A stretch of DNA of 64,000 nucleotides from Rhodobiaceae bacterium (GTDB lineage: Bacteria; Pseudomonadota; Alphaproteobacteria; Rhizobiales; Aestuariivirgaceae), in contig VFJY01000050.1 in the NCBI GenBank assembly GCA_009885825.1, positions 62,001-126,000 of the forward strand, in the 5' to 3' direction. Position numbers and translations under genes: made by a program. Positions 10,590-12,461 of this stretch are shown here, piece by piece. How positions within the stretch are numbered: the first letter of the stretch is position 1; each line of letters begins with the position of its first letter. The notes under the pieces are model-generated. The model searched no databases. It was not told the DNA's origin and saw nothing but the letters and a program-made list of their open reading frames with translations.

Positions 10590-11684
10590 CTAGGCGAACC
10601 TCACCGCATAGACCGGCGGCAGGGAGTACGTCACATTCTGCCAGCTCTCGCCCTGGTCCTCGCTCACCCAGACACCGCCCGTCGTCGAGCCAAACGCCAG
10701 GCGATCACCGGTTTCATCAATCGCCAGCGCATGGCGCAACACGAGGTCATAGGCGTGTTCCTGCGGCAACCCCTTGCTCAGCACATCAAAAGTCTTGCCG
10801 CCGTCGCGGGTCCGCGTAACCACCAGCTTGCCGTCAACCGGAATGCGCTTCTCATCCTTGATGCCGGGCACAAACCAGGCGGTGTCCGGTTCCTTCGGAT
10901 GCACCACCACGCCGAACCCAAAAGAGGAAGGCGGCACATTCTTGACCTCCTGCCAGCTTTCGGACGCATCCCGCGAGATATAAATCCCGCAATGATGCTG
11001 CACCCACAGCCTGTCCGGTGAACCCTGGCATTGCACCATCATGTGCGGGTCCTGCGTGCCGGGATCATCCGCCACATCAGCGGGCGTGTGGTCAAAGCGC
11101 ATGCCCTGCGCCTTGCAGGCCCAGGTCTCGCCGCCATCATGGCTCGTCCACACACCGCCGCACGACACCGCAACACGGATAGTTTTGGGCGACCGGGGGT
11201 CAACGCAGATGGAGTGGATGCCGGGAATGTCCGCCCCGCCGCCCAGCCACTTGTTGCGTTCGGGCATATCCCACAAGCTGTGGATCATGTCCCAGCTTCC
11301 ACCACGATCCCTTGAGCGAAACAATCCACCCGGCATCGTGCCGCACCAAAGCTCACCGTCGCTTCCGGGCTCCAGCGTCCAGATCATCTGGGTCGTCCAG
11401 TTCACGGGCTTGCCCCAGCCATCCAGATCAACAAGGCCCTCGGGCTTGGCGGGATAGGCAGGTGCTGCCAGTTCTTCCCATGCGCCACCATTCGTTTTCC
11501 GGTGCAGCTTCACTCCGAAGTGGCCGTGGTTCAGGGCGGCATAAGTCGTATCATCCCGCCTGTCATGCAGGGTGAGCGTGACATTGTCGCCAATAAAATC
11601 CCCCTTGGACACCGCCCACTTTTTCCTGGTCTTCGCCAAAGTAAACAACCCCTTGCGCGTTGAAACCAGAATTTCTTGGCCCAT
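10590..11684 (-). CDS. BNR/sialidase-like beta-propeller protein (WD40/YVTN/BNR-like), no signal peptide
   Basis: Repeated SxDxGxxW motifs (SRDRGGSWDM, SHDGGETWAC, SRDASESWQEV, TRDGGKTFDV, SEDQGESWQNV). Confidence 0.8.
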   Translation of the reverse strand: MGQEILVSTRKGLFTLAKTRKKWAVSKGDFIGDNVTLTLHDRRDDTTYAALNHGHFGVKLHRKTNGGAWEELAAPAYPAKPEGLVDLDGWGKPVNWTTQMIWTLEPGSDGELWCGTMPGGLFRSRDRGGSWDMIHSLWDMPERNKWLGGGADIPGIHSICVDPRSPKTIRVAVSCGGVWTSHDGGETWACKAQGMRFDHTPADVADDPGTQDPHMMVQCQGSPDRLWVQHHCGIYISRDASESWQEVKNVPPSSFGFGVVVHPKEPDTAWFVPGIKDEKRIPVDGKLVVTRTRDGGKTFDVLSKGLPQEHAYDLVLRHALAIDETGDRLAFGSTTGGVWVSEDQGESWQNVTYSLPPVYAVRFA

Positions 11685-11687
11685 CGC

Positions 11688-11960
11688 TCACCCTCCTGAT
11701 AACGCCTGCAGAACGTAGATGTTGCTGGTGGGTTTGACCGGGTCGCTGAGCCCCACAAGATCGCGCAACCTGCTGCCATCCACCAATATGGTCATGTGTT
11801 TGCGAAGTGCCGCCTGATCATCCAGCACATAATTGCGCAAACGGTCGTTTTTGGCAAAAACAACGCGCAGCACCTCCCGCACCGTCTGGCCCTCGGCCTC
11901 AACGATGGGGCACTCCACATGCCTGCGCAAATTGGTGGTGAATACCACTTTCGCCATCAC
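11688..11960 (-). CDS. MoaD/ThiS-like beta-grasp protein with C-terminal Gly-Gly
   Basis: 90 aa; ..HMTILVDGSRLRDLVGLSDPVKPTSNIYVLQALSGG; overall MoaD/ThiS layout, diglycine C-terminus; 3-nt gap to the BNR gene. Confidence 0.7.
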   Translation of the reverse strand: MMAKVVFTTNLRRHVECPIVEAEGQTVREVLRVVFAKNDRLRNYVLDDQAALRKHMTILVDGSRLRDLVGLSDPVKPTSNIYVLQALSGG

Positions 11961-12071: not shown

Positions 12072-12461
12072 TCAACTCAGGCCAATCAGCTCTTCCATCG
12101 GCTGATCTATTTTCAGTTTCATGGCGTTCTCGAGCAATTGCTTCACAGCAAAGCCAACGCCCGGCTGAAATGCCTGCAGCGAAACTTCGGCCCCATTGCG
12201 AAAACGAACGCCGTCACGGTAAGTCCCGTGATCCAGCCGGATGAAGACAGCGTCCTCACGAGGCTGAATGCCATGTTCACGGCATAGGGATTCAGGAATA
12301 CCGTCGATCTCCAGCGCCGTGTCACAGTTCAGGCAAACAGCTATTGAGGTATGCGCCTGTGACGCCAGCCCAATTGATCCACTCGGGAAACGGGTGGTTA
12401 CATAGTGTTCGCCCTCACGCGCCGGGCGCGAACCATAGACTTCAAGAGAATAATCGCACAT
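12072..12461 (-). CDS. Conserved hypothetical protein (MCDYSL.. type)
   Basis: 129-aa ORF, coding-like codon use, N-terminus MCDYSLEVYGSRPA. Confidence 0.6.
   Translation of the reverse strand: MCDYSLEVYGSRPAREGEHYVTTRFPSGSIGLASQAHTSIAVCLNCDTALEIDGIPESLCREHGIQPREDAVFIRLDHGTYRDGVRFRNGAEVSLQAFQPGVGFAVKQLLENAMKLKIDQPMEELIGLS

Follow-up and report, generated by a model that had tools for sequence, protein, structure and literature searches.

A ThiS/MoaD-type ubiquitin-like protein and a seven-bladed Asp-box propeller form a co-inherited gene pair: a possible CysO-like carrier and its acceptor

The window (the whole stretch of DNA analysed, 64,000 nt) carries, side by side on the minus strand, the genes of a small ubiquitin-fold protein (Ubl) and of a beta-propeller, which are annotated separately today as 'MoaD/ThiS family protein' and 'exo-alpha-sialidase'. 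We asked whether the two proteins form one system and, if so, what chemistry such a system could perform. The preliminary description of the locus had read it as two ORFs of 90 and 364 aa, 3 nt apart, and both were found as such, the propeller ATG following the Ubl stop after 3 nt (Table 1). It had also suggested a sulfur-carrier or conjugation system, which is plausible by homology.

Table 1. Coordinates of the Ubl and propeller genes and of the conserved elements within them (window positions).
Feature	Position	Strand	Basis
Ubl ORF, ThiS/MoaD/CysO-like ubiquitin-fold protein, 90 aa from GTG 11960	11688..11960	minus	ORF call
Gly-Gly codons GGA GGG, doubling as propeller Shine-Dalgarno	11691..11696	minus	sequence
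Seven-bladed Asp-box (BNR) propeller, 364 aa, no signal peptide	10590..11684	minus	ORF; PDB 3b7f E 1.8e-52
K11 of propeller, invariant; strand 2-3 loop of closing blade, top face	11652..11654	minus	model + alignment
W146 of propeller, invariant; top-face 4-1 loop	11247..11249	minus	model + alignment
H214 of propeller, invariant; start of inner strand, top face	11043..11045	minus	model + alignment
Q229-H230-H231 of propeller, Q229 and H231 invariant; end of strand 2, top face	10992..11000	minus	model + alignment
R280 of propeller, invariant; 2-3 loop, top face	10845..10847	minus	model + alignment
R317 of propeller, invariant; start of inner strand, top face	10734..10736	minus	model + alignment

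The Ubl likely starts at ATG 11957 (89 aa) rather than at GTG 11960, because its homologues begin at the second codon (MAKV...); GAGG lies ∼6 nt upstream of this ATG. The protein matched the Pfam ThiS profile (PF02597) at 26.3 bits (cut-off 22.5) and was predicted to fold in the beta-grasp order of strands and helices, with most blocks at pLDDT 89-97. Its C-terminus in the window is ...YVLQALSGG. The profile match, the beta-grasp fold and the C-terminal Gly-Gly place it in the ThiS/MoaD ubiquitin-like superfamily, in agreement with the earlier assignment. In a PDB search with a profile built from 15 Ubls, the best matches were CysO (3dwg, E = 7.8e-15; we take 3dwg_C to be CysO) and 4n6e (1e-13), followed by a MoaD-related protein and then SAMP1 homologues. 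The best NCBIfam match was SAMP1 (NF041918, 34-55 bits), whose curated 60-bit cut-off was reached by no Ubl score, and the scores against archaeal-type MoaD (TIGR01687) were likewise under the curated cut-off; the Ubl was therefore filed in the superfamily and not in those families. It has ∼70 residues of sequence similarity and the Gly-Gly in common with both, but it is bacterial and has a fixed propeller neighbor. Judged by sequence, this ThiS/MoaD-type ubiquitin-like protein has the sulfur carrier CysO as its closest relative of solved structure. The CysO of M. tuberculosis (3dwg) and the Amycolatopsis CysO-like protein (4n6e) share with it the fold, the length, the GG tail and the possession of a dedicated partner, whereas the CysO partner is a PLP enzyme or thiosugar synthase and that of the window-type Ubl is a beta-propeller. 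The tail of CysO reads PAVAGG and that of the pair-type Ubls mostly [QT]A[LIV][ST]GG; the CysO gene is accompanied by those of CysM and the JAMM protease Mec, whereas neither CysM, Mec nor another enzyme is linked to the Ubl-propeller pair. By analogy, we infer that the pair may work like a CysO system.

The propeller opens directly at its first beta-strand and has no signal peptide. It matched one solved structure along its full length, PDB 3b7f (E = 1.8e-52), which was also the top Foldseek hit (E = 2.3e-32, TM-score to target 0.86), ranking above GH74 enzymes, Ycf48 and sortilin. The full-length similarity and the seven-bladed Asp-box fold place both proteins in one family, the 'YP_299179.1 family' of Asp-box propellers; 3b7f (Reut_B4987) is described in PMC2716378 as an Asp-box propeller with seven blades whose function is unknown. 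Five visible SxDxGxxW repeats had been counted before: three fit the strict pattern, four are found when T and F/Y are allowed, and the fifth is a Gly-to-Ser variant, so that the figure of five holds only loosely. The Asp-box propeller fold is shared with Ycf48 and sortilin (Vps10), both of which bind peptide C-termini, but the identity is ∼13%, the biology is unrelated, and sortilin is ten-bladed. It is shared as well with GH33 sialidases and GH74 xyloglucanases, unlike which the window propeller is cytoplasmic and does not conserve the catalytic Tyr/Glu/Asp set. The propeller gene contains an in-frame TGA in genome G459 (L107) and is split over two frames in Rhizobium sp. Q54 (L025), by decay or sequencing error.

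The expectation that the two genes would be conserved neighbors was borne out. Separate searches for the two proteins returned the same 26 of 61 related genomes, both being absent from the remaining 35. Of 387 Alphaproteobacteria sampled evenly, 56 contained the propeller at E <= 1e-20, and in 50 of the 55 examined loci a same-strand Ubl gene lay beside it, mostly at a distance of no more than 100 nt. Among the five exceptions, L130 ends at a contig edge, the upstream region of L103 has been replaced by other, partly repeated sequence, and L085, L145 and L146 have a propeller with no Ubl nearby; a profile search found no Ubl elsewhere in the genomes concerned. The pair was also found in Pseudomonas, Burkholderia, Cupriavidus and Mitsuaria and, with the propeller gene first, in two Actinomycetota (Nonomuraea and Arthrobacter). 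Propellers from Ubl-first loci are at least 44-45% identical to that of the window (one partial-length fragment at 40% is included), and those from propeller-first loci ∼32-41%. Gene order corresponds to a single edge in both gene trees (66 loci; support 0.99 and 1.0), and the link between the two genes has thus survived one inversion of their order. The distances in the Ubl and propeller trees were correlated with a Mantel r of 0.90 (best of 1000 permutations, 0.18); species phylogeny adds to this value, which therefore shows co-inheritance and not contact. In either order, some loci have start and stop codons that overlap by a few bases. The 3-nt spacing, the ATGA overlaps in other genomes and the apparent use of the Gly-Gly codons as a Shine-Dalgarno sequence support translational coupling. 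With the neighborhood conserved, the beta-grasp fold predicted and the GG retained in homologues, the cytoplasmic, Ubl-coupled propeller of the preliminary description holds. We concluded that a functional partnership of the two proteins is close to certain. We found no description of the pair among open-access PMC papers in searches on the pair, 3b7f and presumed P. aeruginosa locus tags.

The Gly-Gly tail was expected in homologues, and it was found where expected in 87 of the 88 distinct intact Ubls, with both gene orders represented: 83/88 intact homologues and the window Ubl end in GG, four carry an extension after it, and one has no GG. The spacing from GGAGG to the propeller ATG is 7 nt in the window, and GGAGGN encodes the GG in 31 of 63 Ubl-first loci versus 1 of 24 propeller-first loci. 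The possibility that the GG is kept merely as the propeller Shine-Dalgarno was ruled out by its persistence in propeller-first loci; it persists where no ribosome site is needed and is therefore kept for the protein. Chance accounts for neither the GG nor the pairing. The Ubl without Gly-Gly is a distant homologue beside the Nonomuraea propeller (L064 6090-6377) and ends in ...VLPALA. The extended ORFs (L098, L101, L105 and L107, family f107) run 8-17 residues beyond the GG and overlap the propeller start. Three of these four genomes have a strong Prok-JAB match and G459 has none, so JAMM processing of the extended Ubls is not established.

In the propeller, K11, W146, H214, Q229, H231, R280 and R317 are invariant wherever their region is present among 93 family members, and by the strand assignment of the model the invariant polar residues all lie on the top face, in 2-3 or 4-1 loops or at the starts of inner strands. 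The top face is the functional face of Asp-box propellers (PMC2716378), and in the predicted model K11, H214, Q229, H231, R280 and R317 appear to form a pocket there. These residues are equally conserved in propellers without a nearby Ubl; therefore the pocket does not serve the Ubl solely. Two Arg are invariant, and the only top-face acid is D277 (81/93). Across the 93 members, neither Tyr nor Glu is invariant at any position and, outside the Asp-boxes, no Asp is fully invariant; the propeller does not have the GH33 exo-alpha-sialidase catalytic set (Tyr/Glu pair, acid Asp and Arg triad). In view of the missing Tyr and Glu, the sialidase label lacks support.

The pair was modeled with AlphaFold2 as two fusions, one in which the window Ubl stop was read as Gly and one in propeller-first order from L143; plasmid-record rows were left out of the folding alignment. 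With artificial linkers and shallow alignments, the window fusion gave a mean pLDDT of 91 and a pTM of 0.77 (tail and linker below 50), and the L143 fusion a pLDDT of 83.7 and a pTM of 0.71. The folds were good in both, and confident docking of the Ubl on the propeller was absent from both. The Ubl is probably unplaced in these models, because both pTM values are close to what we estimate for the propeller alone.

Neighbor clustering over ∼70 loci found no third gene recurring near the pair outside the genus and no linked sulfurtransferase, E1 or E2/E3-like gene. A MoeB/ThiF-type E1 candidate was detected in 60/60 pair-family genomes; the presence of such an enzyme is near universal, and the count fails to refute charging by a housekeeping E1 and is weak evidence for it. 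In the window genome, one MoeB/ThiF-type E1 and a separate canonical MoaD-type gene were found, and Prok-JAB (JAMM) gave no match. A second MoaD-like Ubl in this genome (L074 347-592, 81 aa, ending in PGG) is encoded directly downstream of a molybdenum-hydroxylase-type large subunit. Neither protein of the pair matched a PADLOC defense model, including those of known anti-phage Ubl systems, and a defense role was dismissed on that ground. Riboswitch control was set aside as well, since Rfam at the gathering threshold returned only a tmRNA in 11 loci.

The likeliest mechanism, to which we assign a probability of roughly 0.4, is that the Ubl is a CysO-like sulfur carrier charged by a housekeeping E1 and that the propeller is its dedicated acceptor. 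In such a self-contained two-protein system, the MoeB/ThiF-type E1 would adenylate the C-terminal Gly-Gly of a CysO/SAMP1-type carrier, the adenylated Gly-Gly would be converted to a thiocarboxylate, and the Ubl would offer this tail to the propeller. The top-face pocket (K11, H214, Q229, H231, R280, R317 and W146) would bind the tail, a small anionic substrate or both, and it is there that the sulfur would be handed on. The partnership itself is nearly certain, and the sulfur chemistry is what we infer. Evidence against the sulfur-carrier model includes the apparently unplaced Ubl of the fusion models, the pocket that is just as conserved without a Ubl, the Nonomuraea and extended Ubls, and the lack of a linked sulfurtransferase or E1. 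More tentatively, the pair might represent a new class of ubiquitin-like two-component chemistry across Pseudomonadota and Actinomycetota, with a beta-propeller serving the Ubl-Gly-Gly tail as its dedicated acceptor, be it an enzyme or a conjugation target.

An alternative is a non-covalent partnership with no sulfur chemistry. Here the Ubl would be a small subunit with a regulatory or structural role, and the propeller would simply bind its C-terminal tail, much as Ycf48 binds the C-terminal peptide of D1 and sortilin the C-terminus of neurotensin. These two complexes are among the Foldseek neighbors, the two invariant top-face Arg could bind a carboxylate, translational coupling is tight, and five Ubls lack the GG or continue beyond it. 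However, a near-invariant GG is a hallmark of activation chemistry, and the AlphaFold2 models gave no confident docking; this second likeliest reading is on balance unlikely. We consider it improbable that the Ubl is a protein modifier conjugated through its GG to lysines, possibly K11 of the propeller, in the manner of SAMP1. SAMP1 is its best NCBIfam match and K11 is invariant wherever its region is present, but every SAMP1 score is under the family cut-off, K11 is retained in Ubl-less homologues, the window genome has no JAMM deconjugase match, and no E2/E3-like neighbor was found. The ThiS/MoaD family match and the MoeB-type E1 would agree also with a MoaD paralogue for molybdenum-cofactor synthesis and a propeller acting as cofactor chaperone. 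This is very unlikely, given the canonical MoaD-type gene, the MoaD-like gene beside the molybdenum hydroxylase in the same genome, and a pair with no linkage to moa genes. Least credible of all is a true glycosidase (exo-alpha-sialidase) with the Ubl as an unrelated passenger: the database product name, the Asp-box repeats and the GH74 fold neighbors speak for it, but the conserved catalytic residues are missing, on which ground we dismissed a glycosidase role, the signal peptide is absent, and the propeller is co-inherited with the Ubl.

Treating the two separately annotated proteins as one co-inherited module, with the second label apparently wrong, offers a clue to the function of a propeller family that has had a solved structure (3b7f) since 2007 but no known role. 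It suggests the propeller as a partner type for CysO-like carriers, and we know of no described system of that kind. Pseudomonas and Cupriavidus are among the tractable bacteria that carry the pair. A short way upstream of the Ubl gene, and in the same orientation, a 129-aa protein is encoded (window 12072-12461, minus); it has no Pfam or NCBIfam match and occurs near the pair in just one other examined locus. A Ubl-less propeller gene on a Fuscovulum plasmid (L066 3536-6131) follows a glutamine-synthetase-family gene at a distance of 61 nt, and a gene of that family is also found in the window, ∼2.3 kb from the Ubl. A related Ubl with no propeller nearby is encoded on a Piscinibacter plasmid (L071 6001-6273 with L174 1-107), where moeB lies ∼6 kb away across the record origin.
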